DNA of 64,000 nt from Polytrichum commune (Eukaryota > Streptophyta > Polytrichopsida > Polytrichales > Polytrichaceae). Shown in pieces: positions 21,207-43,239 of this stretch. Position 1 is the first letter of the stretch; each line of letters begins with the position of its first letter. The position numbers were made by a program, and so were the translations under genes. Location of the stretch: contig OX485807.1 of assembly GCA_950295325.1 (NCBI GenBank), forward strand, positions 47,522,440 through 47,586,439, given 5' to 3'. The notes beneath the pieces were generated by a model. That model made no database searches, had not been told where the DNA came from, and saw only the letters and a list, made by a program, of their open reading frames with translations.

Positions 21207-22300
21207 ATACGAACGGGCGTTCGAATGTTCCCCGTCATTCTGTATGTCAACTAAAACATGGACCGTTTCAATTGTGCAGGGATACCTGTTATATGCCTAC
21301 ACATAACTTCCGAGAGTCATTGACGCATATGAATGTATTATTCCATGTGCCCCAAATACACATCCCTCGCCCATACTATGTGTATGTGGAGCAAATGGAG
21401 CATTTTCCCACATCCCGCAGTCAATGTCCAGATACATTCCCTGAATGAATTCGAACGCACGTTCGTATTTATGTCTAATATTTTGTTGTAAATACATATA
21501 TATTTGTGTGCGTGCCCAGGGAGGCGTGATGTATGCATCGACATACTCCTAGGTGGAAATCACGAATGCACGTTCGTAAACTCTCGCTCATCTTATGTAT
21601 ATCTGCTGAAATCATTGATATTTTCGACCTTCTGTTTGCAAATTACTATCGTATTGTATTTACATCTTCATACCCCTTATATCCATGAGTATATGGATTC
21701 TGAAAATAAGCGGTGTCACTTACGAACGCACGTTCGTAAACTCTAATGTCATTTCAGTATGTACCATACACCGTTTACGCGCATTCAATATTTACGAACG
21801 CGCGTTCGTAAACTCTTGCACATTCCCAATGTTCTTCGGATGCTCAAAATGTACATTTACGAACGCTCGTTCGTATATGACTTTCATATTGTTTGTGCCT
21901 ATGCATAATCGTATCTGAGTCTATACATTTATGGATGTAAAATATACGCCAAGGCGGTATTTACGAACGCACGTTCGTAAACATCCAACCAACCTCGATA
22001 TATCTCATCCACAAACACATGCGCGCACTGAAGGTTTACGAACGCGCGTTCGTAAACTCTTGCACATTCCCAATGTTCGGCGGATGCCCAAAATGTACAT
22101 TTACGAACGTTCGTTCGTATATGACTTTCATATTGTCTGTGCCTATGCATAATCGTATATGGGTCTATACATTCATGGATGTACATATATGCCAAGGCGG
22201 TATTTACGAACGCACGTTCGTAAACATCCAACCAACCTCGATATATCTCATCCACAAACACATGCGCGCACTGCAGGTTTACGAACGCGCGTTCGTAAAC
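21207..22300. repeat. E1 palindrome array upstream of the transposase
   Basis: Eleven copies of the E1 palindrome (arm TTTACGAACG, 2-bp centre, inverted arm) start near 21207, 21450, 21561, 21719, 21791, 21856, 21960, 22035, 22100, 22203 and 22277. From about 21780 to 22310 they sit in a 243-bp tandem repeat (about 2.2 units, three palindromes per unit). Centres seen include CG, GG, CA, CT and TT, so only the arms are conserved. The array lies between the transposase start codon (21041) and its probable promoter (about 22460), that is in the transcribed leader. Confidence 0.92.
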
Positions 22301-22454
22301 CCCCGGTATTTGCGGCGGTATTTGCGGGATAAGGTTGTCTGCCACCTATGAGTGTACGGTTCACGCACAGGAAACTGGCTCGAGCGCCCTCCGTCGGGTG
22401 TCTGGAGCGCACACTTGGTGTCTCCCGCAAAAAAGAGCTCTGCAATGGGGGGGA

Positions 22455-22470
22455 GAGCTTTAAGTACTCC
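22455..22470 (-). promoter_or_regulatory. Probable promoter core of the E1 transposase
   Basis: On the minus strand AGTACTTAAAG is followed by CTCTCCCCCCC. The same layout, a TATA-like box and then a C-run, occurs upstream of the E2 gene (TATAAA at 46023, then CCCCCCC) and the E3 gene (AGTACTTAAG at 52981-52972, then ACCCCCC). It is preceded in all three by related GGATCC/GGCGGG-containing sequence. Confidence 0.55.
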
Positions 22471-22675
22471 TCTACCGTGGTTCAAAATCCCTTGGATTCT
22501 CTTTGAAAAGCGGATTCCCGCCGCCTACTTTAACCTAACAATATGCCATTCTATTCATGCAGGACATAAATAACTTTCTGTATTGAATATGTATGGCATG
22601 CACGCATTGATAATATGTTCATCCGTTCCACACCTTAGGTGTTACCAAGGTTTCCCGAACCAAAAAATAAAATGT

Positions 22676-22945
22676 ATATTCCTATATACATATCGATGTA
22701 TATATTTACTTATATTTACATATATATATATATATATCTTTGTATATATGTAAATATATATCTATATATATGTAAATATATATCTATATATATCTATATA
22801 TGTGAATATATATCTATATACCTATATATATGTGAATATATATCTATATACCTATATATATGTGTGAATATATATCTATATATCTATATATATGTTTCTT
22901 ACATATATCTATACTTTACATATATATACATTACATGTATCTACA
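22676..22945. repeat. AT-rich minisatellite
   Basis: Iterations of TATATATCTATATATATGTG type produce a spurious open frame of Tyr, Ile and Thr codons. Confidence 0.9.
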
Positions 22946-23304
22946 TTACATTTATGTACATTATTGCGGCAAATACTCACCAAGTGCATGAACACCAATA
23001 AAAAGTCTGGTGAATTCATGCAAGCTACTAAGGTAGATTAAGGAGATGAATTCAAACCATGCCTAGATATACTTTATATCTTAATTCAAATGCAACTCCA
23101 GGTTTGCAAATAGTGAATTGATTCAACATTGTGTGGAAATGTTGAATTAATTTGGAATGGTGCATAAGATAGTGTAATGATATGAATTGAAACCATACCT
23201 ATATGGAGTCCCACTTATGCATTGTGTAATTAAAATGCACTCAACACTATTAGGTTGGATCACAACATTCCCCCATATAGTGCGGATGGTAAAAAAAACT
23301 AGGG

Positions 23305-23330
23305 GTTTAGGGTTTAGGGTTTAGGGTTTG
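23305..23330 (+). repeat. Interstitial telomere-type repeat, TTTAGGG strand
   Basis: Three to four tandem TTTAGGG units, oriented so that the G-rich strand reads toward gene A. E2 has a longer tract in the equivalent spacer and the same orientation relative to gene A (44618-44666). Confidence 0.85.
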
Positions 23331-23654
23331 TGAGGGATGTGCATGTCCAGTAGTTCATATAACAGGGTTTACATACAAACTATATTCACTACTCATAAAT
23401 CCATATTGCACTAACTTAATTTATTTGTAGCTTACATTTGATGCGAGCCAAACTTTCAACGATCACCATATTCTGTAATTGGGGACATTTTCATGATTTT
23501 GGATACTATTTCAGAACATGGTATTCAAATAAAGAACAAGTAAAACACAAGAATACATTCAATGTGACACAATAAAGCGATTTGCATGGGCAACACTAAC
23601 CAATTTGGCACAAATACATCTCATCCGAATAAGAATTTGAACCACATATTAAAT

Positions 23655-24228
23655 CATTTGCATTTATTTTGAGACTTTCCAAAGTCTCGGATTAACAAAT
23701 ATAATAATAAATTTAATGCAGTAGTTCAAGTTCACACATAATAAACTGAATTGAAAGCCTAGTATTTGAAATTGAATTTTCCCGCACCTCTTGTAAGAAA
23801 ATCCTAAACCGTTCCCACCAATCTTAAATCGGGACCTTTATGGATCTTATATTAAATTATTTGAGGAACCATTTAAAAACTTGAAAGATATTTCAATTAT
23901 GAGAACACTATATATTTGAAAACACCATATTAATACACATCGTTGGGGGTAGGGTTTTCATCGAATCCCTAGTACATGATGTGCAATGTGGAAATTGAAT
24001 TCATACTCCTTATCTAGAAGATGTTTACAATGAATCCAAAGTAGATGAAGGGGATGTAGCATTTAAAATGCATGTTTTGTACTGGACTCCTTATGTTTAT
24101 GTGATGGAGGCATATACATATTAAAAAGCTTGAAATTAACGTGCCTTTATTGCTTATACATCCAACTTAGATTATTTTCGTTAATTAGAGAGTTGGGAAA
24201 GTCTCAAACTAAGTGCAAATGGTGTAAT
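23655..24228. repeat. Inverted pair of decayed transposase-side termini
   Basis: CATTTGCATTTATTTTGAGAC with the following hairpin and ATTAACAAATATAAT (23658-23710) is inverted at about 24170-24228 (ATTATTTTCGTTAATTAG, then AAAGTCTCAAACTAAGTGCAAATG). Each is a degenerate family terminus, and the termini face each other across about 460 bases. It may be a fold-back remnant or the junction of two older insertions. Confidence 0.65.
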
Positions 24229-24359
24229 ATATAGTTGCATTTCTTATTGTGATGACATAGATTTATGTCAAATCGGTTAGTGCCCCCCATGCAAATCACT
24301 TTATTAAGTCACATTGAATATATTTATGTGCTTTGATTACATTGAATTACTAAACCCCA

Positions 24360-25025
24360 ATGAATTCCAACCCATCCCCCCCATCCACCCATCCCACACC
24401 CCATGCTATCTCCCCATCCCATCCCCTCATCTTCCTAGCCCGACCCATCCCTTCCCTCCCCAATGGGAAGCGGCCATGTGGCAGCCCGAGGGAAAACCCT
24501 AGAGGCGCGGGCTACCTCCCCGCGCCCCCTCCTCTCCTTCCTCATTCTCATTTGGAGCAGAGAGAGGAGGAGCGCCGCGTTGGTTTAGAGTTTAGAGGCG
24601 AAGCTCTTGCATTTTTTAGTTTTGTGTGGTGCACTTCTTTTGTAGGCGCAAGTGTTGAGAGTTATTGACAGTCCCTTGAGAGTTGCAGCTCAAGAATAGA
24701 GAACTCGAGTTAGAAGAGTTGAAAGTTGGAGAGTTTAAAGTTTATAGAGTTTAAAGCTTGAGAGTTGGAAGGCTAAGATTAGGATACTCAAGCTATAAGC
24801 TTGATAATTGCAAGTTTTAGAGTAGCAGCTTGAGAGATACTGCATTTGAAGTTGCATATACATCAGAGTCTTAGTTAGGGTTTGTACATAGCATGCAACA
24901 ACTAGTGTGAAGGCAATTTCAGTGGTGCAGTGGTGCATTTGACTTTCAAATCACCTTGCTTTTGTGGGGTTTCCTGGGGTTTTCAACAAGGGAGCAAGCA
25001 GCTTTTGGGTGTGTAAAATTTCAGA
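24360..25025 (+). promoter_or_regulatory. Probable promoter and untranslated first exon of E1 gene A
   Basis: A pyrimidine-rich tract (about 24365-24470) and GC-rich sequence precede a non-coding leader ending at a donor AGA|GTAAGC at 25025/25026. E2 has an equally CT-rich tract on the coding strand (43860-43560) and a donor AAG|GTAAGC at 43240/43239. The exact start site is not visible. Confidence 0.45.
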
Positions 25026-25853
25026 GTAAGCACAATATTCCTTCCCTTCTCAAATCCTTCACAGTCTATATTTGTTCATTATTGAATGGCATGTGTTTTG
25101 GAAGTCAAGTTCGGATCCTCGTTCTGAATTCTCTGTCACATTCCAAGTCTATATGTTTTGATTGTATTGTTTTTCTTCAATCTCACCTTTCTGACGAACA
25201 CTTGCAGGCACAAGTGCAAGCTTTGTTGAGACACAGCAAGCAAGACCTTGCCATACGTATGTATACGAATTCGTATATATACGGACACTATATTGTTATT
25301 ATTAATTATATATATAAAAACAAACAACAGGCTCATTTACGAACGAGCGTTCGTAAATACCTCTACCGCGCACAATATACACCCATTTACGAACGCGCGT
25401 TCGTAAATGCATAGGCCGCGCAAAATATATACCATTTCACGAACGCGCGTTCGTAAAGATTCTTTGGAACCCAAGGACTATGTTTACGAACGTGCGTTCG
25501 AAACTCTAAATCCAAAATGGAGGGATATATCCATGCTGTAATTCATATAAGTACTTAAATCCAATCACAACACTAAATTTAACTCAGTAGTTTCCACAAT
25601 ATCACATGACTTTACGAACGCGCGTTCGTATAGTTATGTACAAAATACTAATAAACAGGAATCTCATATTACGAACGCGCGTTCGTGAAAGATGTGAACC
25701 AATGTGAATGCATTAGAAACACCCTGAAATGCATAAAGCATTCAAAACTTCGTATTTCCAAAAACCACACTATGAAAATAATATGCATGGCACGGTGTTG
25801 TTTACGAACGAACGTTCGTAAAAGCAATTCTGATTTGCTCTTGTGTGATGCAG
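25026..25853 (+). other. 5'-leader intron of E1 gene A with seven palindromes
   Basis: The proposed intron runs from GTAAGC (25026) to the acceptor TGATGCAG at 25853, which is immediately followed by the start codon. Seven E1 palindromes start near 25336, 25386, 25436, 25483, 25611, 25669 and 25801. In E2 the equivalent intron (43239-41927) also ends exactly at the ATG and holds about 17 palindromes of the E2 type. Confidence 0.7.
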
Positions 25854-27150
25854 ATGGCTAAAGCTAACAGAAACGCCATCGACTTGTTCGCAGTGCCAGT
25901 GGAGCGCCTTCCAGAGGGCGTCTCGGATACCAATGGGAACGACAACTATGTCCCAAAAGAAGAATTCATGGCTGAGTGGACGGCCATCCCCACGAAGACC
26001 GAGGAAGGGTTGTTTGCATTGCGATTCACTTATGAGCTGCAGACAAGGGCTGACCAACCAGACCAATGGGTGCAGACAAAGAATTGGGAGATAGAATCCG
26101 CAGAGGCACAAGGAGACTTTGTTATTCTGGATATGAAAAATAAAAAAAACCATGTGAACCTCCTCTTAAACTACCTATTGCACCCATTCTCTTATGCTTA
26201 TGCATGCAATAATGTCGCATCCGATGCGAAACATTTCAATCTGGATGCTCTCTTCACCAAATATGCCCTGAGTCAACACTGGACGGCGAGGAAGTTGACT
26301 GCCCTGACCTTGAATGTTTCGAAGTACAACAGTGTTGCCGCGGAGGCAAATAAAAAAAAAAAAAAAACCGAAAAAACCAGCTGCTTCGGGGGCAGGAGGA
26401 TCGAGAAGTGCTCCGCGGCCTGTGCCTTCGGGGAGCAGGTTGACAGAAGGGCCCAGCAGACAATCCACTCCATCCAAGAGGTCGAGGGACGAGATGGAGA
26501 AGTCCGGATTGACGGAAGGCGCTGAGGTTAGTTCTCCTCCAGTGATGCCAACCCCTTTGAAGAAGGGAGAAAACCCAGACGCTGCCAAAGCGACAAAAAT
26601 CCTTCGAGACTTCAACAACTACTCCAAGGATTGATGGCCTATGGGACGCCACTTCACTTTCAACGTGGATTGTTTCAAGTGCGAGAAATCTCCTAACAAG
26701 TGGGTGGTGAGGTCTCGTGAAAGCGGAGGGGTGAAGTGGCAGATTAATAACCTCATGAACAACGTGAAGTGGGATAGGCAGACCGTCTGCGTGATGCCCA
26801 AGGGTTTTTTGTCACGCCCCACTGAGAAGGATTGGCCAAGAATCCAGAATGGAGAGTTCTGGATAATCGATGGACAACACAGTCTAGAGGCGTCACAGAT
26901 CATCCTAAAGGATGATAATTTCCAGCACGAGCTCAAGGCGGACCTGCGCTACTGGAAGGCGTTTTTGGTTTGGTCTGACGACTGGGACAAGCTCCGCAAA
27001 ATATCGACATTTTTGAATTCCGGAAACAAGATCAAGGCATTCGAGGCCTCCTGGGCGGCGAATATAGTGGCGGCCAGAGACGTGTGGGTCGTGCACGGAT
27101 GCCCGCCAAAAGAGAGGGAGAACGCCAAGACGCAATCTCCACAGTGGAAG

Positions 27151-27273
27151 GTGAGTTTACGAACGAGCGTTCGTAAAGCATATGTTGCATTAAACAATTT
27201 CTAAATTTTCCAACTTACGAACGCGCGTTCGTATTTAGTATTGAACACTGACGTCCTCGTATGTATGTTGCAG
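27151..27273 (+). other. E1 gene A intron 1 with two palindromes
   Basis: The donor AAG|GTGAGT is directly followed by a palindrome (27156-27177), a second is at 27214-27235, and the acceptor is TGTTGCAG at 27273. The corresponding E2 intron (40600-40395) holds three E2-type palindromes, one of them also hugging the donor. Confidence 0.85.
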
Positions 27274-28599
27274 GCGTTCTGTGATGCGATGGTGGACAAA
27301 TTCTCCTCCATCGACATGAAGTCCACAAGCACCAAATCAGTTCTGGAGCTCAAAGGTGAGCTCCGTCTGATTTGCTGCAACAGAGACACCAGGGAGTTGT
27401 GGACCCAGTTCTTCGACGCTCACAGCTCGGGCGATCTGGTGAACCCAGACATAGAAGAGAAGTACGCTCAAGAGAAGAGCGGAGAGGCTCCGCCTCTACT
27501 GCGGGAATTTTTTAGGGCCCTGCAAGGACTGACTGAATCAGAGTTGCAGCGATGTGCGGTTCACGTTCTTGGGAACACCGTCGGAAGGACCATCCCTTAT
27601 CCCAAGATATTTTTGAAGAGACCAAAGCACAAGCCCGGCACGTACTCGATCAAAGAGTGGTGCGACCACAGGAAGCTGAAGACTGCTGCGATGCGGGAGA
27701 TTAGCGGCCTATTGCCTGAGATGCACCTTTTCCAGGCCGACGAAGATATCAACTGGGCGAAATGGAAGGAGTTCAAGGCGCTGTACAATATCAACGGTGC
27801 CTCAATGCGCAGCCTGGTGAAGGAGCACGTCGCCGTCCTGAAGCTCAAGGGAAACAAAATAGCAAAAAAAACAGAAACGGAACCTGAAGAGCTTCAACGG
27901 TACATCTCTTTCTTGGAGAGGAAGAGGAACGCCACCTTCGAGGGCGTGGCAAGATTTTGTGTGGTGACCACGGGGCTGGAGAGGACCACGTTTTCCAAGT
28001 GGGATGGCACCTTCAGCAGGTCCGAGGTCAGGGAGGATCGAAGGGGTTGTCCCTTCGCGGTCATCGACTTCAGAGGGATACCCGGTGCCTCGCGACAGGG
28101 CGCGAAGGGGGAGCCTTTTTACAACCCTTTCATGGCGAGATTCATGGAGCACAAATCTCCGACCATGAGGGAGCCGCACGTATGGCTGTGGATTGTGGAG
28201 CAGGAGAAGCAATCCGTCGTCATCGATTTGTATGAGAACAAGATCAAGTTCGAGTACAACATCTTCCACAGCACATACGTGCCAGCGAAGACGGAGGGAA
28301 TTGTTGCCGTAAACGAGGCCAGAGGCAACAGGCAGGTGGGAGCGGTGAGCCTCATCTTCTTGACGTACAATGCGCTTAGGAATGGGCGAGCACCCATAAA
28401 GGCGATCAACACATTCAAGAAGATATACAGCATCCCTCACCCACCTCCAAAGGATCTCTTCCAGGAGACTCTGTACACTGTCTTCCCGGCGCTGGAGCTG
28501 AGGATGGAGTTCTACGTCTCCATATTGCAGGGTTTGGCAATGATTGGCGAGACTGTCTACAACGTATTTGGAGGCAGCAAATTTATGTACGCGGCCATG

Positions 28600-28787
28600 G
28601 TAAGCCATCTCACACCACTTTTTACGAACGCTCGTTCGTAAACACTGCATGCTCCAAACAATTTACCATGGGCAGCCGATACTTATGATTGTTTTGTGAA
28701 TTGTTTTTTTATTATTTCCTCGCTCAAAGCCTTCATGTTTACGAACGCGCGTTCGTAAATGACTGAATCTTTGCCTTCTTATCTCAG
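28600..28787 (+). other. E1 gene A intron 2 with two palindromes
   Basis: The donor ATG|GTAAGC and acceptor CTCAG|ATG flank palindromes at 28621-28642 and 28738-28759. The E2 counterpart (39063-38747) carries six. Confidence 0.85.
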
Positions 28788-29761
28788 ATGCTGGGGCTGT
28801 GCGTGAACACATATATTGACGCCGTCGACGAGGAGGATTACAAGTTCCACAGGACAAAAGCGTCGACGATGGACCTAGCTGACATGTCCGTGCCCAGAAC
28901 GGACTTCAACATGCCGGCCGAGGAAGGCATGCCGCCCATGGAAACAGACGACGACGAGCCTGGCCCCTCCGTCAACGTCGATGCCATCCTCCAGGCTTTG
29001 GATGTCACTCCTCTCCGGTTGTTGGCCCCATCGGGGGAGCCTTCAGAATACCAAGGGACCCCGGCTGGATGTACTGGATCCTCGGCGGGTGCCACCCAGG
29101 ATGTCCTCCCCGCGCTTACCTCAGGCGCGGAGCCCTTCGGCACGCCAGGAGGTTGTTCGACGTCAGTGTCCCCCAAGCAAAGGCTGGCGGTCCCGAAAAT
29201 GGAGACCCTCGATGTCCTCGACCAACGCTCCCGTCCCACGTTGGACCTGTTCCGCAACACGCGACGGAGGATGAAGAAGACCCCGTACGTGGAGTTGCCC
29301 GAGGGGGCGATCATCGAGGTCTCCGACGAGGACAAGGGGGACATTGACATTATGGTCGAGCTTGGGGTGGAGTTCGACAAGAACAAGAGGGTCAAGGAGG
29401 AGGCCCTTTCCGTCGCCGAGCTTAACGCAAAGCTCGAGCAGAAGATGAAGGAAGACATGGCTGCGGCTGTAGAGGAGAATGCCCGGAAAATGAGAAAAAT
29501 TGAGGAGGAGCTGAAGTCCTCCAACGAGAAGACGGACGCCATACTGGCAATGCTGACCAGGCTGCAGAACTTTGCAGTGGCCCCTCAGGCAGCATTCCCA
29601 TTCCCTGCGGGATACCCCATGCACGGTCCTTTCCCGGGAGGGCATTCCTACCAGCCAGCGCCCCACCCAACGCCGGTGGGGACTCCTCCACCCCCTACAA
29701 TGCCCACGGACACCGCCAACATACACGACGCAATCTCGGCGGCTATCCGTGAGGACGAGGA

Positions 29762-29783
29762 TTTACGAACGCACGTTCGTGAA
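29762..29783 (+). repeat. Exonic palindrome 1 in E1 gene A
   Basis: ATTTACGAACGCACGTTCGT lies in the Pro-rich linker of exon 3 and is translated in frame as Leu-Arg-Thr-His-Val-Arg. E2 has an E2-type palindrome in the corresponding linker. Confidence 0.85.
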
Positions 29784-30150
29784 TCTTCAGGTCCAACAGT
29801 CCTCACCCCACCCCCACCAAGGGTAGGACTGCCTTCACAGACGGACACGGCACCTTTCACCGTCGTCCCCAGTTTACTAGATAGGACAAGGGGCGATGAT
29901 ACTGCGCGACACACTGACTTGGTCATTGTGGAGGACACGCAGGGGAGCCCGAGTGACACCGCAGGCGTCCAGAGGATGGACGTCGAGGACAGCCCTGCGG
30001 AAGACCGACATCCCCCCGCATGCATTGGGGACGTGCACATGGAGACTCTCGACCTGGGTGGCGAGGAGGACGACATACAGCAGACCCAGACGTCTCAGGC
30101 GGCGCGTGCTGACGACGTAATGGAGACTGAGGCACCTGCGGCGGCGGATG

Positions 30151-30172
30151 TGACGAACGCGCGTTCGTTAAT
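30151..30172 (+). repeat. Exonic palindrome 2 in E1 gene A
   Basis: TGACGAACGCGCGTTCGTTA is translated in frame as Thr-Asn-Ala-Arg-Ser near the end of exon 3. E2 again has a second exonic site before the FCP1-like exon. Confidence 0.85.
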
Positions 30173-30230
30173 CGCTGAGGAGGGAGCTGCCGCTCAATCC
30201 AGCGCCGCTGCCCCTCCCTCCGATGACGAG

Positions 30231-30820
30231 GTAACTCATCTTTGAGACTACCGCATGCATTTACGAACGCGCGTTCGTAACATCTCTAACCACATGCGTT
30301 GTGTTTTGGCGCGTTGTATACATCGGCATCCGAAACCTCCGATAGCCCATTTTTGCGTGCTTCCTCAGGTCGACCAGTTTTGTAGGACACGGCATCTTGT
30401 TGCCCTAGGAACCTGTACGATAGATTATCATCTGAGACAAACTGTAAATTTTCACGGAATTCATATAAATGAAACATTTTTTTGCATCGAATCGCGTCGT
30501 CTCGCATTGGTTGTTTTGTGTATGTTCATGCGGGTTCAAATCTGTTGTGCATTTCTGCCTCGATCGCGAACGGACGCTCGTAAAAGGATGCCACCCCGCG
30601 ACCATCTCCTTCACGAACGCCCGTTCGTAAATGCACTATAGGGTTCATTCACAAATGAACGTTCGTGAATGGTGCGCATGGTCACTGCTGGCCTTTCACG
30701 AACGATCGTTCGCAAATGTACCCTTGTTCTCGCCCTTCGTCTTTTTCCATACTGCATCTTCATGTTTGCTAAATTCTTTATTGGATCATAGCATTAAACT
30801 AGTCGAATTGTTAATCACAG
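30231..30820 (+). other. E1 gene A intron 3 with about five palindromes
   Basis: Donor GAG|GTAACT and acceptor ATCACAG|GAC. Palindromes or near-palindromes lie at 30260-30281, 30566-30586 (degenerate), 30610-30631, 30646-30667 and 30694-30715. Confidence 0.8.
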
Positions 30821-31762
30821 GACCCCCCGGAGATAGGTCGCAACCCCTCCACGAGTGGACCTCAGACCCGAAACAAGCCGTTCATCGTGTTTGACCTCAA
30901 CGGGGTGTTGTGTCACACCGAACACATCCCGAGGGTCCCCACGCGTCCCTTCCGTCACCCCGACGAAAGGGACTATGACGGCGAGCTCGACACCCTAATA
31001 AACCGCAAGGCTGTCCGCGCCCGTCCCGGCTTGCGGGACTTCCTTCGCGAGGTTGTCGAGTTCGCCCACGTCATTGTGTGGAGCTCAATGGTCATGGAGA
31101 ACACGGAACCCATCGTCGACTTCCTATTCCGTGATCTCCCGAGCCCTTGCCTTGTCCTCGGGCAAGAGGACTGCGATGAACTACTCGACGAAAAGGGTCT
31201 ACTGGTTCCCAAGTTCGGCGGCCGAGGCCGAGGGCAACAGTTCCTCAAGGTCCTAAGGTCCAGACTTTGGCGCGGCGTCCCCCGGCTTCAGGGGACCCCC
31301 CACGGGTGGTGGCCTACTCCGGAGAACACCCTCCTGGTCGACGACAGCCCCGCCAAGAGCGTTTTGAACCCCCCGGGCAACGTCATCTTTCCCGACACGT
31401 GGACCGGAGATAGGAAGGACGCATTTTTGGTCGATACGCTAGCGCCGTACCTTAGAAGGCTTGTCCTCCACGCCGGTAGCATCCCCTTTTTTGTTAGGTC
31501 CAACCCCATCGGCAATGCGGGACTAAGCCCCCGCGATAATGTATACAAGAGCATCATGAGGCTCGCGAAATTTAATAAACTCATTTGAAATATCTTCATG
31601 TATGTGCGTGTTATCATTTGGTTCACATATCTAACGCTTCATCCGTTTTTGGATGTCTTTGTTGTCTGTGTTGTTGTTGTTATTGTTGTTGTTCCCCATA
31701 GTTTGCCCCCATATGTGACGCCCCCGTCCTCCACGGCCTTTCCCGTCCCCCCTCGTCCCCAG

Positions 31763-33072: not shown

Positions 33073-33076
33073 AACT

Positions 33077-33385
33077 AATTGAAACCAATTAAATGATAAG
33101 ATGGATGGTGTGGAACGTTTGTTGCTCACATAGTTCATTTTGCAATGCTATAGTATTCCGTTCACTATTTGGTACTTGTATGATTTATAAAAAAAAATAT
33201 GATGCCAAAAATTGGTCTCTCTAAAAAATTACAAATAAACATAGGGTGCTTAAAAATATGTCAAAGCAACTTTATATCTACAAATAGGGAGGGAAAAAAT
33301 ACCGAGAGGTGCATAAATACCCCCCCATTAAATACCCCATTATCGCACGTGGTTACAAAATGTAAGGGGGTGTGACCCCCCCGTA
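33077..33385. mobile_element. Right arm of X
   Basis: About 310 bases, AT-rich without a gene, ending in the inverted CCACGTG and G-run terminus at 33385. Confidence 0.75.
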
Positions 33386-33393
33386 TGCATAAC
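33386..33393. repeat. 8-bp target duplication of X (right copy)
   Basis: TGCATAAC, identical to 16081-16088. Confidence 0.9.
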
Positions 33394-33720
33394 AAGGGCA
33401 CGCCGTCTTCGCATGGTCTATTTTGTCATGAATGATTGTCAAAACCTCATTTGGCCTCATTATCGATAATGCGCGATTCTTGTAGTAGTCTTGATGGTGT
33501 GCCTCTTGGTTGTTGACATGCTCAATGTATTTCAGTTGATGTCTGTTGTGCGACTCAGTACCTATGGGATGTGCATCTCGAAGGCCTTTATATTTCTCAC
33601 AAGCAAAACACCTGGCAAACTTATCCCCGGGTCTCTTCGTAATGTATTCTGCGAATTGTTGATTCTTAATCACACTCAATTTTGACAACGAAATCGGCCC
33701 ACATCCAGCCTTTTCGCCAA
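33386..33720 (-). pseudogene. E3 DUF7869-type transposase, middle piece
   Basis: On the minus strand it encodes GEKAGCGPISLSKLS through the zinc-like ACEKYKGLRDAH segment and IHDKIDHAKTACPCYA without lesions. It is bounded on the right by E2 (the gene continues at 50698-51713) and on the left by X (the gene continues at 16088). This 335-bp island, flanked by two different insertions, proves the order E3 first, then X and E2. Confidence 0.92.
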
Positions 33721-33722
33721 CT

Positions 33723-33775
33723 AACACTATATTCGTTAAATTGAGACTTTTTGGGCATTTTGAGACATTCACATA
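33723..33775. repeat. E2 terminal inverted repeat, gene-D side
   Basis: AACACTATATTCGTTAAATTGAGAC followed by TTTTTGGGCATTTTGAGAC. It matches E4 (1-158) more closely than it matches the transposase-side ends. Confidence 0.88.
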
Positions 33776-33867
33776 AATAAGAACAAGGATAAATGGAACA
33801 CATATTGGAGAAAGTTGTAAGATGCGAACACTTTGAAGCAGGTGTTTAGACCAAGAACCCCATAAAT

Positions 33868-34150
33868 AACTCATATTTGTGATGGTTTAGGGTGGGCAAT
33901 CCAAATCTTAGACCACATTTAAGGGGAAACCTTAAAACATTCATATTATTGCACACAAAATATTAGAGCTTGTATGAATATGGTTTAGGTAGGGCAATCC
34001 AAACCATAGATCTTATTGAAGGGTTAATATGTTAACCAATATAATATTGCATACAAAATATTCCAAACTCATATTTGTGATGGTTTAGGTAGGGCAATCC
34101 AAACCTTAGACCATATGGAAGGGGAAATCATGTCTAACTTGTATTATTGC
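33868..34150. repeat. E2 subterminal tandem repeats
   Basis: Three diverged units of about 105 bp, each with a TGATGGTTTAGG(G/T) to GGCAATCCAAACC core that is itself a small inverted repeat (GGTTT/AAACC). Subterminal iterations of this kind often serve as transposase-binding sites; that role is inferred. Confidence 0.75.
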
Positions 34151-34307
34151 AAAAAAAAACATACAAAGTGTGGCATGTAAAATGCATATCATGCTAACAC
34201 CACACATGCATTGGATAGTGCGACCCAAAATGTTCTTGCCTATGGCCCAAAACCCTACGCCTACTATGGCCTATCTAGCCTCGGATACTACCTCTTTTTC
34301 TTTTGCT

Positions 34308-35081
34308 TCATTTTCTTTTGCTTTTTTTTTCTTTTGCCTCTTTTTCTTTTGCTGCAGCTTCTTTTGCTCGCATTGCTTCAACATTCCTGAAAATCTCCGC
34401 CCCGCGACTATAGCCATTCTTGGGGTGAACGCCATCAATAACACATTTTGTATTCCGTCGGCCGCCCGAATTATACGACGAAGAATTCGAATACGATGAA
34501 GTGGACTGTCTTGCATTTCTGGTCATGGAGTAGAAACGCTCCAACTCGATGGACGCACTAGACCGCATAGGTTTACGGGTGGGAGCAACCTGCAACGCGT
34601 CAACGCAAGAACACATGTGTTAGTTTAGGGAGGAAGACCCAAACGTGTCACACGATCATTTTTTAAGTGCAAAATGATTGTAATGCGCGGATAACCATGT
34701 TTTTTTGGGGGGTTGGGGGGGGTTCACCTTGTCACCGGGGGCGTTCCCGTCGGAGTTGGCGAGGAGGGGCAAAGCATCCCGCAAAGGAATAGGAAGGGTT
34801 CCACTCTTCGTAGGCCGAGCGTCCATCCGCAGCCGCCGTTGAGGTGTACTACTGCCGCCGGGCCGAGAGGGGGATGTCCGGACGCATTTGCGATTTATGC
34901 CTTTGAGCGGTGACGGGGACGCAGATCGCCGGAAGATTTGCTTGGGTGGGGGGCTATCGACGACGCCGGCGTCAAGAGGCTCCTTGGAGTAGTCGATGGT
35001 TGACGCGGCGTCGTAAACGGTCTCGTAGAAGAAGCTCCCCAAGTCTGACTCGCTGACGACGTCAATCGAGGGCTCCAAACG
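34308..35081 (-). CDS. E2 gene D: small basic protein, two visible exons
   Basis: Exon 35081-34728 (after CTCCAG) and exon 34589-34308 are joined by a phase-0 intron, donor AAG|GTGAAC and acceptor TTGCAG|GTT. The first exon holds IDVVSESD, IDYSKE and VVDSPPP. The second holds a Ser/Tyr-rich stretch, SYNSGG, GYSRGAEIFRNVEA and a long Lys/Glu tail. It matches E1 gene D exon for exon. The start is not resolved, so an upstream exon is likely. It follows the FCP1-like exon of gene A by about 150 bases. The family is not recognised. Confidence 0.65.
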
Positions 35082-36511
35082 CTGGAGCCAAAATTGGAAC
35101 AAAACAAAACCCAAGGAAAAGGGGGGAGATAGAGCGCGTGAAAATCAAGATACATATGAAGCGTAAATTACACAAAATGGGCAGGCGCATATACACACAC
35201 GCACATACAAACACACGTACTGTCTCAAATGAGCTTGTTAAATTTCGCGTGAGATAACAACTCTCTGTACAAATGGTCTCGTGGATCCAAGTATCTCTCG
35301 CCTATGGGATTATTCCTAACAAAATTGTTTACGGGAAGTCCGCTTCCCCAGAGCGCCTGGAGGTATTTACTAAGGTCTAACAAAAATCGGTCCCGAACCT
35401 TCTCGACCGTCCACGTAGGGCACACTATGAAGTTGGCCGTCGGGTTCAACATGTTCTTTGCGGCGCTGTCGTCCACCATGAGCGTGTTCCCGCGGGTGGG
35501 GCGGACGTCGTAGGGGACGCCTATCAAGGACGGTCGCTGGTCCCAAAAAATGGGCTTCAAGACCTTGAGGTATTGGGGGGAAGCAGGGTTGTTTGGTTTT
35601 TTGACGACTTTGCCGTCCTGTGTGTACAATATTCTACAGGCTTCCTGTGCTAGGACCATGCAGGGGGGCTCGATGCCCTTGAAGATGAACTCCACGACCG
35701 CATTGGTGTTCTCGGCCGTCATGGAGCTCCACACGACCACCCACCATCGTTGTTGGGCGATCTGGAGGAAGGTCCGAAGCCACGGGCGGAGGTGAACTAG
35801 CTTGCTCTTTATGAACGTGGGCGGCCCGTCGTAATTAGCATCCTCGGGCTTGCAAAAGGGCACTGTGGGGGCCCTAGGGCAATGAACGCACTGCACGAGG
35901 ACACCGTTCAGGTCTAACACCAGGAATCGTTTCTTCGGCAGCGGGGGCGGGGCGGGTAAAACCGGGGGGGCCGCCGTGCTGCCCTCTGCGCTCCTTGGAG
36001 AAGAGCGTCGGGGAGCCGCTACGCTATGCTCCGAGCCCTGCGGATACAAGCGAGAGAAAACGGTGGGCGACTTATGTCATGCTATGTCCAAACGAAGCAT
36101 TAAGGAAACGAGTGTTCTTGGTGCAAACACAAAACCAATTGATTCATTTTGGAGGGGGGTGCAACAAGGGATACAAGAGAGACAAGAGCATACAAAATAC
36201 ATTCAAACACAATATACAAGTATATAGGAGTCAAAAATGGTGATTGTATTGTATACAATGCTCTATGTACATTTTGATTGGGGGGAGCCGCGTTGAACGA
36301 TGCGTTCAAACTAGCCTACTTCTAAATCTAAGAAAATTTGAAGAGACGGGCCGCCGTGATGAAGACTTCGTCGCAAGCCGGGGTAGGTGGACGAACGAAT
36401 GGTCGGGGGGATGTGGCGAAGGGCGCGAGTGCCGGGGGGGGGGGGCGACGTGTGTGTGAGTTTAGGGTAGCTAGGGGACACGACCAAGGCAAGAAGACAA
36501 AGACCCATGGA

Positions 36512-36533
36512 GTTTGGGTCGACCGACCCAAAC
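36512..36533. repeat. E2 palindrome in gene A intron 3
   Basis: GTTTGGGTCG, centre AC, then the inverted arm, about 20 bases downstream of the donor GAG|GTAATG (36555/36554). The intron runs 36554-36038. Confidence 0.88.
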
Positions 36534-36814
36534 TGAGTGGGGTCAGTGCATTACCTCGCCTTGGTCGTGCCTTGACGACGTTGATGCCGGCATCGCCTGC
36601 GCTGCCCCACCTCTGTCACCGCCGCCTCCGACGACGACGTCAGCCGCAACCTGCTCCTGCAAAGGCTGACTGTCAGGCCTTTGTCCCAACCCAACCTCCG
36701 CATGCGCATCATGCATTGGTTCATCGACTGGGTTAGGAGTAGAGGTATCACCAGGCCCTTGCGGGCCTTCAACGTCTAACATGCCCTCGTCCACCGGGGT
36801 CTGGTCGGGGACGG

Positions 36815-36905
36815 GGTTTGGGTCGGCCGACCCAAACCCTACTGCTTCGCGAGCGTCGCTCTGGGACGCTGCAACGTCGGCACTGTTTGGGTCGGACGAC
36901 CCAAA
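36815..36905 (-). repeat. Two exonic E2 palindromes in gene A
   Basis: Sites at 36815-36836 and 36884-36905 are read in frame as Gly-Phe-Gly-Ser-Ala-Asp-Pro-Asn and Met-Phe-Gly-Ser-Ser-Asp-Pro-Asn, within the Pro-rich linker before the FCP1-like exon. E1 has two sites of its own type in the same linker. Confidence 0.88.
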
Positions 36906-37185
36906 CATGTGGGGGTCGTCCCGCTGGTGGTGTGGGGGCGAGAGGATGGGAGGCCGGAGCGGCGGGGGCGCCAACGAGCTGGACGCACCGGGGACGCGCC
37001 AAAGGTTGCGGTCGTCCACCTGCTGGACGGGCGCGTAAGGATGGGCGTGCGGCTGCAGCAACTGTGCGAAGCTGAAGGAATGCTGCAGCGTGGGCCGCGG
37101 GGCGATATCCTGTGGCGGGAAGCCTGCGGGCAAGTGCGGGAATGAACTCGGGGGAGCCATCACCAATCCCTGCGCCAGCATGCCC

Positions 37186-37905
37186 CTCAGGGGGTGCACT
37201 GTACTAAACATGTACGAGTATATGTGAGTGCACAGAAGGGGTATTGATTTGGATTTTGCCGTATTACGTATACATATGGTATACGTGTTATAATTTATAG
37301 TTACGTACATATATGGAAGGCCTTTAAAAAATATACAATAATTGTACTTGTATGGTATTGTTACTATACTACATATCATAAGTTTTCATATTGGATGCGG
37401 AGGAAGTTTTGTAATCGTTGGGTGCAGTATAGGGATCCAATTGACTTGATGAACCGTCCATCAAACGTGGAGATTGGTTTATGTTGGTATCAAAAAGGGG
37501 CTAACAACAAGTGGACATATGATCTTACTGATCATTTGATGGTAGACTTAGAGACAATAATTAATTGCATTGGCTACAATGACACATATTGGTGAATCAA
37601 ATGTTTATGAGTTACATCCGGGAGATGAAAAAGTTTTCAACGACTTTGCTGATGAAAGCTAGGATATTTTGTTATACATATTATAGGGGTTGATTATTGT
37701 TCAAAAGTATATTTGTATACTTATGTTAATGACTATATATGAATGGATGTTTTTTTGTGTATACATATTATCACTTGTATATTTATTGTTGCAATTGTAT
37801 GTGTATTACTTCATTTCACAAAAAATAACTTGTATATAGGGGGTTTTTAGAGGATGCAGTGAACGCACGTGATTCTAGGTTTTAATGAAATGTGCACCCC
37901 CCGAG
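37186..37905. mobile_element. hAT-like MITE (720 bp) in exon 3 of E2 gene A
   Basis: The termini are CTCAGGGGGTGCAC and, inverted, CTCGGGGGGTGCAC, flanked by the 8-bp duplication GCATGCCC (37178-37185 and 37906-37913). Removing it with one duplication restores the exon 3 frame at Gln-Gly-Met-Leu-Ala-Gln. The interior is AT-rich; an open frame at 37395-37595 (starting MRRKFCNRWVQYRD) may be a captured gene fragment that I do not recognise. Confidence 0.88.
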
Positions 37906-38829
37906 GCATGCCCTGGATCACTTGCGTGATGAGCTCCGCTTGGGACGGAGTTTGGGCCATCGCCCTTTGCCGCTCCTGCTCCAACAGGAGAGCCCTCAAC
38001 TCCGCCACTTCGTTGCGGACCGAGGGTTCCTCGGCGGCAGCCCTCTGCAGTCGCACACGCTGCTCCTCGTCTCGGAGCATTTTTGCGTTCGCCTCCTCCA
38101 CGGTGAGGACCTCCGGTTTCACCCTCACATTCCCGGCGAACGCTCTAGGGGAGGCAGGATCCGACCTCAGCCTCTTGGCGAGTTCCATGTCGTCCTCGTC
38201 CTCTGAGCTTATTGCGATTGTCTCCTCCACCGCATAGTCCCCGTACAGCTTCTTCCCCTTCATCCTTCTCCGCTCCCTGAAGGTGGCCGTTGCGTCCCTC
38301 GAGTACATGTCCTTCGCGTCGTCCACCGTCAACGCGGGCACCAGCCTGCTTTGCGGCGTGGCAGGCCGCATGGCCTTCTTCCGCTGAGGGGCCTCGGATT
38401 CTTGAGTGAATCCTGTTGCCCCTTCCTCCACCTCCCCCTCCACTTTCTCTGCTTCCTCCTCCTCCTCCTCCTCCTCCCCAACCTCGCCACCTGCTCCCAT
38501 CGACGGATTGCCCGGATGCAACCCGATGAGCGGCTCTGGCAATTGAACGGGGGCACGCATGGCGAATTCACCCGGGTTGATTCGCCTCGCCATATCCAAA
38601 GGATTCTCGCCCCCCTCGACTATCTCTTCAACGTAGGATCCGGGTATCCAGTCAAGGATGTCCATTTTCTTGGCCAGTGCCTTCTGGGTCCTGTAAAATT
38701 GAACATCGGCATCCTCCACATAGGAGTAGATGTTCAACCCAGACATCTGCACAATCCAAATCAATAGTATTAGTATAAACTAATGAAGAGTAAGGAAAAA
38801 TGACATCCAAAATAAAATAAGAATAGTTA

Positions 38830-39029
38830 GTTTGGGTCGAGCGACCCAAACTATGGGCATACCCAGTTTGGGTCGCTCGACCCAAACTAGGGCGTGCACA
38901 GTTTGGGTCGCTCGACCCAAACTAGGGCATGCACAGTTTGGGTCGAGCGACCCAAACTATGGGCATACCCAGTTTGGGTCGCTCGACCCAAACTAGGGGC
39001 AAACACAATTTGGATCGCTCGACCCAAAC
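38830..39029. repeat. Six E2 palindromes in gene A intron 2
   Basis: Sites start at 38830, 38866, 38901, 38936, 38972 and 39008 (the last with a changed arm), about 35-36 bases apart, within intron 39063-38747. Centres are AG, CT, CT, AG, CT and CT. Confidence 0.9.
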
Positions 39030-40456
39030 CGTCCGTATAGGGCTTTCAGGGTTCTTTGCTTACCATTGCTGCAAAAATCGGTTTGGATCCCCCGAAAACG
39101 TTGAAGATGCAGTCCCCTCTCTTAGTGAGGGTCCTCATCATCCGCAGGTAGAATTCCATGAGCAGCTCATCCGCGGGGTAGTTGGCGTACTTCGCCTCGT
39201 CATACAAGCTCCTGCTGGTACCCAACCCTTCTTGGACTTGGAAGAGCTTTTCCATCCTGGCTATAGGATGGTTGGGCACCTTAAGTAGATCAGCTTTGTA
39301 CACGAAGTACAAGCACAACACGTTGACGATCTTCGTCTTCTTGTCTTTCAACGTGCTGTACGCCCCCTCCGCCGGTGCAGCAACGTAGTGAGATTTCGAG
39401 ACGGCATACTCCGGCTGCAATTTGCGCACGATCTCGTAAACCTGCTCTGCCCTCCTGTCCTCGACAATCCAGAGCCAGACGTCGACCTCCCTGAATTTGG
39501 GGCTGGCGTAGTCCACGAACTTCGACAAGAAAGCATCGTAAAAAGGGGTGCTCATAGTCCCCTCGAATGAGGCTCCAGGGATATTCCTGAAGTCTATCAT
39601 TCCGAAGGGGAAGCGGTCCCCAGCTTTAGTCCTGATCGCCTTCCTGGACTCAGAGCCCGGCAACCTTGGATCCTGAGAGGCTCGACGGTGACCATGTTGA
39701 ATTGCGCATCGCCTTCGAAACTGACGATCTTCTTCTCCTTTATGAAGTTGGAGAAGGCCCACGCTGAGTGTTCGGGAAGCACCCGGTTCCTCCCCCCCTT
39801 CACGAGCTTGGATCTGAGGAAGTCGTCTCCCGCCTCCCTCATGAGTGCCGCCATGGACGCACTGGTGAACTTATATTCGGCTTTGAAGGCCCTCCAGTGC
39901 GCCTCGTCGACCTCTCCGTCCACGATGAGCTTCTTCTCGGGCACCAGCTTGTGCAGCTCTTGGACGATGGTCGTCTTCTTCTTCCTGTTCTCCGTCCATT
40001 CCTTCATGGTGTAGCATGAAGGGATGAAGATCTTGGGTTTGGTGAAGACGATCTTGGGGTGGACCCAACATCTCTTCGCCGTCGTCTCCACGTGTAGGAT
40101 GTGGGACGCCGCTTTTCCCATCTCTGTCTCGGAAAGACCTTGAAGCGCTCTGAAGAACTCCCTCACCAGAGGCTTCATTTGCTTGAAGCGCGTAGTCTGG
40201 TTGAAGACCATGCCGGTGTCGGGGTCCATAAGGTCCCCCGTCTCGTGTTTTTCAAAAACACTCCTCCATTTTCCCCACACGGAGTCGGACGCGGTGATCA
40301 AATATATTTCTCCTCGCAACTCGTTATACTTTTTTTGCTTGTGGCTAGCATTGTCTATCGAGGAGAATTTATTGATCATCTGATATTTGAAGTCCTGCAC
40401 ACGTAGCCAACAATTCATGTTAGACAACATCTCATGGAATAACAAATGAAACAGCA

Positions 40457-40592
40457 GTTTGGGTCGATCGACCCAAACTATAAACCTGGTAAAGACAACA
40501 AAGCCATGCAAGAGTTTGGGTCGAGCGACCCAAACTATGAATTTGTTGAAGACACTAAAACAATGAAAGAGTTTGGGTCGGTCGACCCAAAC
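40457..40592. repeat. Three E2 palindromes in gene A intron 1
   Basis: Sites 40457-40478 (centre AT), 40514-40535 (AG) and 40571-40592 (GT) are spaced 57 bases apart inside intron 40600-40395. Confidence 0.9.
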
Positions 40593-41926
40593 ATACTCAC
40601 CTCCCATTTGGGGTTCTTATCTTTAGCATTCTCCCTTTCCCTGGGAGGCCTGCCATAAAACTCCCACACCTCCCTCGAGGCCATGATGTTTCTGATCCAC
40701 GATGCCTGATAGGCCCTCTTTTTGTTCCCCATGTTGAAGAACCTGGAGATGTCGCTGAGGACCGTCTCGTTGTCCGACCAAACCACCAAAGCCTTCCAAA
40801 CTTTTAGTTTCTCCTTCTGGTTGTTCGGGTCGTTCCACTCGGTCATCAGCTGGATTTTTTTTGATGCCTCCACACTGTGCTGCCCGTCAATCAACCAGAA
40901 GTCTCCTTTGGAGATTGTCGGCCACATATCAGGCGTCGGCATTCTCTTCAACCCTTGTGGCATGACAACAATCGTCTGCCTGTCGTCCTTGAACTGCCCG
41001 CCCAAGATTTGAGCGACCATCCAGTCGACGTAGGCGTCCTCCTTGGCTCGGACACATTTCTCGGGTGGCGCAAGGTGGCACTGCGCAATGTTGACCTCGA
41101 ACTTGAAGTCCCTGCCCATGAAGAAGCAGTGCAGGCATTTTGTTTCGAAGTTGGTGTTTATTTTTTGTATTTCGCCTGCATCCACTTCCTGGCCAGGCTT
41201 CGGCATCCGGAGCTTCGGGGAAACAGGCTCGTCAGTCATCACCGATGACTCTCTTCCCCTCTTGGAAGGGGTCGTTTCACGGCTTGTTGATGGCGTTGGC
41301 GTTTCGCTATCAGCCGGCGTTGTTGTAGTACTTGTCCGTCTCGACTCTACAGGGACCGCCCGCGGTTTCCTCACAGTTTGTGGTCTTGAGGACCCTGCGC
41401 CTTCTTCCGTCGGTGCCTTCCGCCTCACAGGCTGTTGTGTCTTGGGTTTGCTTTGCAGCGCCTTGTTTAGAACCGTGATAGCCTGTTTTAACTTCGTGAA
41501 CCTGCTCGCAACCTTCGTGTTGGTTACACTGCCATCTATGAATATGGCCTCCGGTTGTATGGTTTCAGGGTCGACGCAGGTCTCCTTGGCGTACAGGGGG
41601 TCGAAGGGCTCGGAGAACTGGTGCATGAACATGTCGACGTTCTGCACGGCGGAGTTCTCCAGTATGACGTCTACATAGTCCCCGAGAGACTGGACAGACG
41701 CAACCTCCCATCCCGTCAGCGTTGCCCAGGTGTGCTGCTCGTGGGTCCCCACCTTCACCACGAATAGCAGCTTGAACATGGATGCCTTCACCACCTGAAC
41801 GGACCATGCCAGAACGACGCCATCTTTTGGGACGTAAGAATCGTCCTGTGGAGTTTCATACTCCTGCCAAAGGTGGTCTGGCGCGAGCATGAACCACCTT
41901 TCACCTGGTCTCTTTTTAGGGGCCAT

Positions 41927-43239
41927 CTGCAACCCAAGAAATCAAAACTGTGAGTTTCGGTCGATCGACCCAAAGTATTGCAATGTGCATTTAACATTTG
42001 GAGGATTGACCCAAACATTACTTAATTTTCAAAGTCGTTTTAAAAGATCTTTTAGATTTTAAATTGTGGTTTAGGTGGTCACCCTGCAATGTTTGAGTCG
42101 AGCGACCCAAACATGATGAGGCTGCAAATTTATGTAGTTTAACCGATTCATTTCAGACTGCAATGTTTGGGTCGAACGACCCAAACATTTACTTAATTTT
42201 CAAAGTTCTTTTATATTTTACAATGTGTTTTAGTTCTTCTCCGTGTAATGTTTGGGTCGACCGACCGAAACATGTTAGGCTGTAAATTTAGGTATCTCAA
42301 CCCAATCATTTCAGACTGCATTGTTTGGATCGCACGACCCAAACATTTACTTAATTTTGAATGTTCTTTTATATTTTACAATGTGGTTTGTTCTTCTCCC
42401 TGTAATGTTTGGGTCGAGCGACCCAAACATGATGAGGCTGCAAATTTAGGAAGCTCAACCCATTCATTTCAGACTGCAATGTTTGGGTCGAACGACCCAA
42501 ACATTTACTTCATTTTCAAAGTTCTTTTATATTTTACTATGTGGTTTGTTCTTCTCCCTGTAATGTTTGGGTCAAGCGACCCAAACATGATGAGGCTGCA
42601 AATTTAGGTAGCTCAACCCATTCATTTCAGACTGCAATGTTTGGGTCGAACGACCCAAACACTTACTTCATTTTCAAAGTTCTTTTATATTTTACAATGT
42701 GGTTTGTTCTTCTCCCTGTAATGTTTGGGTCGAGCGACCCAAACATGATGAGGCTGCAAGTTTAGGAAGCTCAACCCATTCATTTCATAATGCAATGTTT
42801 GGGTCAAACGACCCAAACATTTACTTCATTTTCAAAGTTCTTTTATATTTTACAATGTGGTTTAGTTCTTCTCCCTGTAATGTTTGGGTCGAGCGACCCA
42901 AACATAATGAGGCTCCAATGTTTGGGTCGCTCGACCCAAACAAGAGGCTGCAATGTTTGGGTCGCTCGACCCAAACAAGACGCTGCAATGTTTGGGTCGC
43001 TCGACCCAAACAAGACGCTGCAATGTTTGGGTCGATCAACCCAAACATTTAGTTCATTTTAGGCTGCAATTCAAATATTTATTATATTTTAATATGAGTT
43101 TGGGTCGTCTCCCCAAACTACTGTGTTTCCAGATGCATGTTTAATGCTTCGGCAACATATACAATGCTTATGCATTGTATATGTAACAGGAACCTAAAGG
43201 GAATGATGCAAATTGTGTGCACTGATGCAAATTGCTTAC
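41927..43239 (-). other. 5'-leader intron of E2 gene A with about 17 palindromes
   Basis: The donor is AAG|GTAAGC at 43240/43239 and the acceptor GGTTGCAG at 41927, immediately before the ATG. Palindromes run from 41954 to 43045. From about 42090 to 42900 they sit two per unit in a 158-bp tandem repeat (about five units). Then five sites follow at 35-base spacing (42884-43045). Several arms carry single changes, for example GTTTCGGTCG. Confidence 0.8.

Follow-up and report, generated by a model that had tools for sequence, protein, structure and literature searches.

In this study we analysed a stretch of 64,000 nucleotides of Polytrichum commune (GenBank assembly GCA_950295325.1, contig OX485807.1, forward-strand positions 47,522,440 to 47,586,439; hereafter the window), which contains three large related transposons, each with its own family of palindromes. 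Two of these elements, E1 (17513-33073) and E2 (33722-50694), had been recognised in the first-pass annotation, but both are nested inside a third one, E3, and interrupt its transposase gene. Coordinates are those of the window, and elements and palindrome arrays are given without a strand. E1 is bounded by TAACACTATATTCGTTAA and GAGACTTT in inverted orientation, with arms (17513-17541 and 33045-33073) of 90% identity, and is flanked by AAC ahead and ACT behind. The terminal repeat of E2 is the same as that of E1, its arms (33722-33750 and 50666-50694) are 100% identical, and its flanks, when joined by eye with the doubled AC counted once, give an uninterrupted stretch of the E3 transposase. 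The first piece of E3 (13721-17512, minus strand) comprises the end of the element, with the terminal sequence at 13721, and the C-terminal part of the transposase; the remainder of E3 lies at 33074-33721 and then from 50695 onward.

The E1 transposase was read as an open frame with the intron read through (17910-21092, minus strand; Pfam DUF7869, E=1e-38), and the E2 transposase has two exons (47107-50163, plus strand; DUF7869, E=1.3e-42 on 48655-50163). These two are 58% identical in the first part and 65% in the second. The E3 transposase is 83% (14342-15577), 89% (33386-33739) and 73% (50691-51584) identical to that of E1, and 58% at 15580-16086, where the intron is included. In both E1 and E2 a second gene, gene A, is divergent from the transposase gene across a central region of about 2 kb; the gene A of E3 was not found within the 64-kb window.

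Gene A has four coding exons with every junction in phase 0, and is frame-shifted in both window copies. Splice signals and reading frame suggest that exons 1 to 4 belong to one transcript. In E1 the gene lies on the plus strand: exon 1 (25854-27150) is frame-shifted at an A stretch near 26352-26367 and has a TGA stop at 26632-26634, and its second half is 45.7% identical to that of E2; exon 2 (27274-28599) is open for 442 codons; exon 3 (28788-30230) carries two palindromes in its coding sequence; and exon 4 (30821-31588) encodes a NIF/FCP-type phosphatase domain (Pfam NIF, E=8.9e-16). In E2, on the minus strand, exon 1 (40601-41926) encodes a variable N-terminal domain, a basic S/T/P linker and a conserved DGQHSxEA domain, exon 2 (39064-40394) has one frame shift near 39640-39690, exon 3 (36555-38746) again contains two palindromes, and exon 4 (35225-36037) encodes the same type of phosphatase domain (Pfam NIF, E=8.6e-15). 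About 600-650 bp of AT-rich extra sequence near 37200-37850 in exon 3 of E2 is either an insertion or an additional intron. Exon 2 matched no known family and exon 3 is of low complexity. Past the stop codon of the phosphatase exon there is a further conserved coding stretch, at 31702-32670 (plus strand) in E1 and 34656-35144 (minus strand) in E2, with no Pfam match.

The 22-bp palindromes described earlier proved to be real, with two 10-bp arms and a 2-bp spacer. The E1 motif, TTTACGAACG-NN-CGTTCGTAAA, occurs at 29 sites with at most five mismatches, and the E2 motif, GTTTGGGTCG-NN-CGACCCAAAC, at 40 sites with at most four mismatches, 37 of them strong (at most two mismatches); the other three, weak and with four mismatches, lie at 33983, 34083 and 34623, near the end of E2 on the gene A side, where a 98-bp tandem repeat includes two of them. 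The E3 motif, TTTACGGACG, is found at seven sites in the transposase leader (51859-52707) and at 15954-15975. In 34-kb sequences shuffled with an order-1 Markov model, five per motif, 0-1 sites appeared. Within the window the E2-type sites are confined to E2, no E1-type site occurs in E2, and the only sites outside E1 within five mismatches of the E1 motif are those of E3.

The distribution of the palindromes is the same in E1 and E2, as had been claimed: both leaders, introns 1-3 and exon 3 are occupied in both elements. The transposase leader holds 11 sites in E1 (21206-22299) and nine in E2 (46244-46892, in 78-bp tandem units), the latter array falling outside the range originally given for the palindromes. 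In the gene A leader there are seven (25336-25822) and 16 sites (41954-43046, in 158- and 35-bp tandem units), respectively. Intron 1 has two sites in E1 (27156-27235), the first 5 nt past the donor, and three in E2 (40457-40592), the first 8 nt past it; intron 2 has two (28621-28759) and six (38830-39029), and intron 3 five (30260-30716) and one (36512-36533). Gene A thus accounts for 18 of the 29 sites of E1 and for 28 of the 37 strong sites of E2. In neither element is there a palindrome in gene A exons 1, 2 or 4, in the transposase coding sequence, or in the roughly 2.1 kb between the promoters, whose places were judged by eye from TATA-like sequence. The gene A end is empty in E1 and has only the three weak matches in E2, and no strong site is present at the termini. 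Under a uniform spread over the non-coding DNA of the element such a distribution would have P of about 2e-9 for E1 and 2e-8 for E2 (weak sites included), although both values overstate the significance, since tandem copies are not independent. The palindromes within the coding sequence of exon 3 (29762 and 30150 in E1, 36816 and 36885 in E2) encode differing peptides in the two elements, so selection there more likely acts on the nucleic acid.

The same genome (408 Mb, 64 contigs) was then searched for further copies. A genome-wide count of the motif, which the first-pass annotation had proposed, gave 9,231 exact E2 palindromes and none of the reversed control pattern. Searching with gene A exon 1 yielded 1,149 first-look candidates, the best 95 of which were scored and had 90-100% identity. 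All 30 of the 30 loci cut out at 97-100% identity (window copy included), each covering 4.3 kb, had 5-17 exact E2 palindromes, and 15 further copies of 90-96% identity, picked from those scored (about 9.8 kb each), had 9-23; exact palindromes of five other counted motifs were found in none of these loci. Near-identical proteins accompanied by unrelated palindromes would speak against coevolution of motif and protein; in the set where this was checked, that of the E2-type copies, 45 of 45 keep the E2 motif. In the 15 more divergent copies the occupied compartments are the leader (15/15), intron 1 (14/15), intron 2 (15/15), exon 3 (14/15, exactly two sites each) and intron 3 (13/15, one site each, the other two copies being without a detectable exon 4), and coding exons 1, 2 and 4 have no palindrome in any of them. 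The first site of intron 1 lies 8 nt past the donor in 13 of the 15 copies. The number of palindromes varies from 2 to 16 in the leader, from 0 to 9 in intron 1 and from 1 to 7 in intron 2. The single copy with no palindromes in intron 1 (L036) lost them via a deletion; loss of the intron by splicing was considered and rejected, as the junction takes away exon ends and is not a splice product.

A second search, with a gene A protein of clade III (P0065), gave 1,078 first-look candidates, which may overlap with the 1,149 of the first search; 93 were scored and had 70-78% identity. Gene A is thus highly abundant in the 408 Mb. Four of these 93 copies were sampled, and all four have the E3 motif in the leader and also in intron 1, where two of the sites have one mismatch. 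Closest to the start codon, the leader carries an E1-type site in two of them, exact in one (L052:821-842) and with one mismatch in another (L056:822-843); the site at this place is two mismatches from the E1 type in the third (L050:816-837) and E3-type in the fourth (L054). It is possible that the E1-type site of these copies is a fossil of an ancestral motif.

Relatives elsewhere, mostly from public contigs, were collected in three protein searches, which returned 49, 34 (20 new) and 164 proteins (120 listed), giving 189 proteins in all. Because open reading frame predictions of these relatives often run on through the splice site into intron sequence, the palindromes are legible as peptide: the E2 palindrome appears as VWVDRPK, FGSIDPN or LGRSTQT, and that of E1 as LRTSVRK, YERSFVN or FTNARS. 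Of 100 read-through tails with six letters or more, a stop counting as a letter (46 from exon 1 and 54 from exon 2), 70 encode a family palindrome with at most one mismatch and 76 with at most two, in comparison to 0 and 1 of 345 control segments of 50 exonic residues. Each mismatch count is the lowest that any choice of synonymous codons gives, a palindrome could extend one codon beyond the tail, and the controls were scored by the same rule. Of the six motifs scored, E1, E2 and E3 were read in the window; the others were deduced from tails that allow a unique palindrome or, in one case (P0065), by solving a tail manually. Because the motifs stem from the window and such tails themselves, the test addresses recurrence and not discovery. 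The peptide-derived motifs are GTTTCGGGCG (P0022, P0024 and P0026; single solution), GTTTGGGCCG (P0015, P0107 and P0117), TTTACGnCCG (P0065, P0121 and P0129) and TTTACGGACG (P0066, P0068, P0119 and P0126), the last being equal to the E3 motif read in DNA.

For one distant relative with DNA (contig L001, encoding P0047), 28% identical, palindromes were found in matching places. The pattern TTTATCCTCG-NNN-CGAGGATAAA, with a spacer of 3 and not 2, occurs there five times with at most two mismatches; four of these sites precede the start codon, and one follows the likely exon 1 donor by about 20 nt. It was absent from 99 of 100 shuffles, and within the 4.8-Mb bin the exact pattern is restricted to this contig. 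The contig is labelled as uncultured Synechococcales. It carries split gene A exons together with its own palindrome family, and we set the cyanobacterial label aside, as the exons are split in the same way as in gene A; this suggests a eukaryotic contig in a bacterial bin. No relatives were found among viral contigs searched with gene A exon 1, exon 2, the transposase, and the E1 and E2 palindromes.

The arms of the palindromes had been regarded as unrelated in sequence. We reject this: E1 and E2 share five of ten arm positions, E3 and E1 nine, and E3 and E2 six, and all seven motifs found have TT at arm positions 2-3 and CG at positions 9-10, with substitutions elsewhere. Near neighbours differ little, E1 from E3 by one base per arm, and E2 from its two sister motifs by one and two. 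Between families, all four bases occur at position 8 and no fewer than three at position 7. Within 628 E2-type half-sites, in a comparison from which two of the 45 loci (L012 and L017) were dropped because their orientation was not settled, position 8 is altered in only 10; positions 2, 3, 4 and 6 have 5, 1, 5 and 9 changes, whereas positions 1, 5, 7, 9 and 10 have 34, 51, 31, 44 and 19. A position rarely changed within a family and variable between families is what would be expected of a specificity position, although other T positions are rarely altered too. The pattern as a whole appears to fit protein contacts better than base pairing; however, a lower mutability of T relative to C and G may contribute. 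As a separate observation, all eight single transitions in the window E2 palindromes are C>T on the sense strand (43025, 42565, 42797, 46400 and others), a bias that is weaker in the larger copy set (69 C>T, 42 G>A).

Changes of the motif run parallel to the phylogeny of gene A. For exon 1, the tree has 37 labelled tips carrying six motifs and requires five changes, which is the minimum, whereas 500 label shuffles required at least 13 (mean 17.2); here P0025, P0029 and P0044 were left unlabelled as ambiguous, P0040 was left out as too short, and P0046, P0053 and P0057 were labelled E1 on two-mismatch matches. In the exon 2 tree, 28 tips with five motifs require five changes (minimum four) and 200 shuffles at least eight, with P0123, P0124 and P0161 unlabelled, eight labelled proteins left out as too short, and P0125 labelled E3 though E1 also fits in one peptide window. 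The exon 2 counts are unchanged when the intron tails are removed, and the extra change falls within clade III. Where the peptide does not settle arm position 7 (E1 or E3), tips of the E1 clade were labelled E1, which possibly hides a change. Pairs with the same arm have at least 62% gene A identity (exon 1); with one arm difference the identity is 42-83%, with two 60-71%, with three 32-34%, with four 29-37% and with five 31-38%, which makes the relation strong though uneven. Because the changes are stepwise and follow the gene A tree, the history of the motif is one of descent with modification. Of the earlier proposal, conservation of position with wholesale replacement of the motif, the first part therefore stands, as the compartments match, and the second does not, as the arms change stepwise within a common scaffold. 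The idea that the motif coevolves with an element-encoded factor is well supported by its agreement with the gene A tree for both exons.

Taken at face value, the palindromes are predicted to be DNA sites for a dimer of a protein encoded by the element, most likely the gene A product, and we find this reading rather probable. Gene A is favoured because most sites lie in gene A, because its N-terminal domain and linker are the fastest-diverging parts (E1-E2 identity within exon 1 is 23% in the N-terminal domain, 17% in the linker and 45% in the DGQHS domain), and because it diverges more between E1 and E2 than the transposase does. Bound as a dimer, the gene A product of a family would occupy the palindromes of that family in both genes of the element, at leaders and introns. 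Each family's protein would recognise only its own arm, so that the gene A and transposase gene of the same family would be acted on and those of relatives would not. The most likely use would be to keep the bound regions transcribed against host silencing, or else the element's own transcription might be regulated. The phosphatase domain is a possible effector acting on the polymerase; sites in transcribed parts, with none between the promoters, are the pattern that such an idea would predict. The identity of the binder, the dimeric binding and the anti-silencing outcome are all what we infer.

To our knowledge, sequence-specific anti-silencing by a transposon has been worked out only for the VANDAL elements, which are MULEs. 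The comparison with VANC, the precedent put forward by the first-pass annotation, holds for the motifs but not for the proteins. In the sections cited, VANC motifs are described as tandem repeats, different from family to family, that occupy introns and the region ahead of the transposase, and VANC as more variable than VANA (PMC5735166). As judged from these sections, the present elements are alike in having a short motif iterated in their own non-coding parts, in introns of the accessory gene and upstream of the transposase (PMC5735166, PMC10398659), in the tandem arrays, in a motif that differs by few bases between related families, and in an accessory protein more variable than the transposase, gene A here and VANC there. 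In contrast, the transposase here is of the DUF7869 type with no MULE domain by Pfam, gene A ends in a phosphatase domain, and the site is a 22-bp palindrome where the same sections describe a directional 8-9-mer. Neither DUF1985 nor DUF287 was matched in exon 1 (50 members), exon 2 (38 members) or exons 3-4 (E1 and E2). By analogy, the present system may work like VANC anti-silencing without being a member of it; the presumed logic is known from VANDAL/VANC, and the predicted component proteins are not.

Another giant transposon, Sola1-1_Ec32 of the alga Ectocarpus, has an accessory gene with a ParB-like domain and a DNA methyltransferase, which the cited part of that report proposes as a binder of its own element (PMC12477816). 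It resembles the present elements in its large size, in an accessory gene on the strand opposite the transposase and in a possible ParB-like domain; the transposase is different, and palindromic sites, a feature of the present elements, are not mentioned in that part of the report (PMC12477816). A DNA methyltransferase was not matched in gene A by scans of exons 1-4. In bacterial ParB-parS systems palindromic sites are bound by a self-encoded protein, ParB being a CTP-dependent sliding clamp with ParA as its partner. Palindromes are present here too, and a self-encoded binder is predicted, but the likeness of gene A is not significant by sequence, there are tens of sites per element, and they lie in eukaryotic introns; no ParA-like partition partner was matched among the window proteins scanned. 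En/Spm encodes a DNA-binding protein, TnpA, whose motif is iterated within that element, but there the motifs are subterminal, whereas the termini here are without a strong site. In the open-access literature, outside of which most subscription papers lie, our searches listed no report of family-specific palindromes of such kind, nothing on DUF7869 and nothing on element-specific or intronic palindromes.

Several observations weigh against gene A as the DNA-binding protein. Agreement with the gene A tree does not alone name the binder, because any trait linked to the element would show the same, and the transposase or another element product would be expected to follow the tree equally well. 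Searches of gene A gave no DNA-binding domain at a significant level, all ParB-type matches being sub-threshold (E 0.028-0.5). Over the DGQHS box these are PHROG 1033, ParB-like, in 4 of 10 proteins (E 0.028-0.28), GmrSD_N (E 0.063), DUF6551 (E 0.055-0.072) and DGQHR in 1 of 50 members (E 0.5). Unrelated families match single members as weakly or better, namely GHBP (0.0013), SPX and YEATS (0.019) and a PHROG of unknown function (0.0051). The PDB sequence search gave no ParB-type structure and only weak unrelated matches, tblastn of phages and plasmids with the DGQHS domain gave no match, and PADLOC gave weak matches only. The DGQHSxEA box presumably resembles the ParB/DGQHR box, and the conserved domain may be ParB-like. 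Active NIF/FCP-type phosphatases have the box DxDx(T/V), whereas both exon 4 copies have DLNGV in place of the usual acidic pair. Finally, VANC targets include intergenic and terminal regions, according to the cited sections (PMC5735166), and the present elements have no sites between the promoters and only three weak ones near one end.

Alternatively, the palindromes could act in RNA, each forming a hairpin of 8-9 bp near splice donors that controls splicing or translation. The restriction of the sites to transcribed leaders, introns and one exon, the 8-nt distance of the first intron 1 site from the donor in 13 of 15 copies, and predicted folds of -8.7 to -13.2 kcal/mol are in agreement with this. 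So are the double changes at one pair, which keep Watson-Crick pairing in 6 of 8 cases in E1, E3 and L001 and in 8 of 8 in clade III, and the single transitions of the window E2 palindromes, 8 of 8 of which leave a G-U pair. However, in the set of 314 distinct E2-type sites, single transitions compatible with G-U pairing are not in significant excess over those that break the pair (60 versus 44, two-sided P 0.14), only 1 of 11 double changes restores Watson-Crick pairing, and single transitions split 6 versus 9 in E1 and 3 versus 4 in E3. In addition, half-sites changing together, combined with a strand-biased C>T process, would mimic compensation. On the substitution pattern of the E2-type sites we rejected the hairpin as the principal explanation, and consider it unlikely.

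The sites could instead serve the transposase during transposition, as it is the other element-specific protein and a leader array is present in all three elements. This seems quite improbable to us: no strong site lies in or beside the terminal repeats, E1 and E2 have nearly the same termini but different palindromes, and the motifs of E1 and E3 already differ although their transposases are 73-89% identical (three coding pieces). Host factors, such as transcription, replication or chromatin proteins, might also have been recruited family by family, and nothing in the present analysis shows that the binder is encoded by the element. However, one host factor per motif, each changing in step, would be required for the seven related motifs that shift stepwise along with gene A and of which three reside side by side in a single genome, and such recruitment is in our opinion similarly doubtful. 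That the palindromes are functionless selfish repeats spread by slippage and conversion would suit their widely variable and largely tandem copy number, but is very improbable in view of their absence from the 2-kb non-coding centre that separates the promoters, their near absence from the ends, their nearly constant numbers in exon 3 and intron 3, and the matching places of another motif in the 28% identical relative.

Elsewhere in the window, a retrotransposon polyprotein (reverse transcriptase, RNase H and integrase, with a PHD finger at the C-terminus) is encoded at 61310-63949 on the minus strand, and a long terminal repeat retrotransposon-like element with an integrase and a weak chromodomain match occupies 2065-11948, with decanucleotide repeats TCGGGACTAG near both of its ends. 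An Rfam scan of the window gave no match.

Returning to gene A as the predicted binder, a bolder version, which we put forward only tentatively and regard as possible but doubtful, is that it fuses a DNA-binding module to an RNA polymerase C-terminal domain-type phosphatase, which by docking on its own palindromes in the element's transcribed leaders and introns would reset the polymerase or the chromatin there and so spare the copy from silencing. Such an anti-silencing system would have arisen independently of VANC, and one genome would house gene A in well over a hundred copies, with three or more private specificities side by side. If so, an unrelated transposon with an unrelated protein would have arrived at the same anti-silencing logic as VANDAL. 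The 9,231 exact E2 sites in 408 Mb, together with the ladder of near-neighbour motifs, make the evolution of DNA-recognition specificity directly testable, and, if the prediction is true, these elements would provide large natural sets of orthogonal 22-bp operators together with their proteins.

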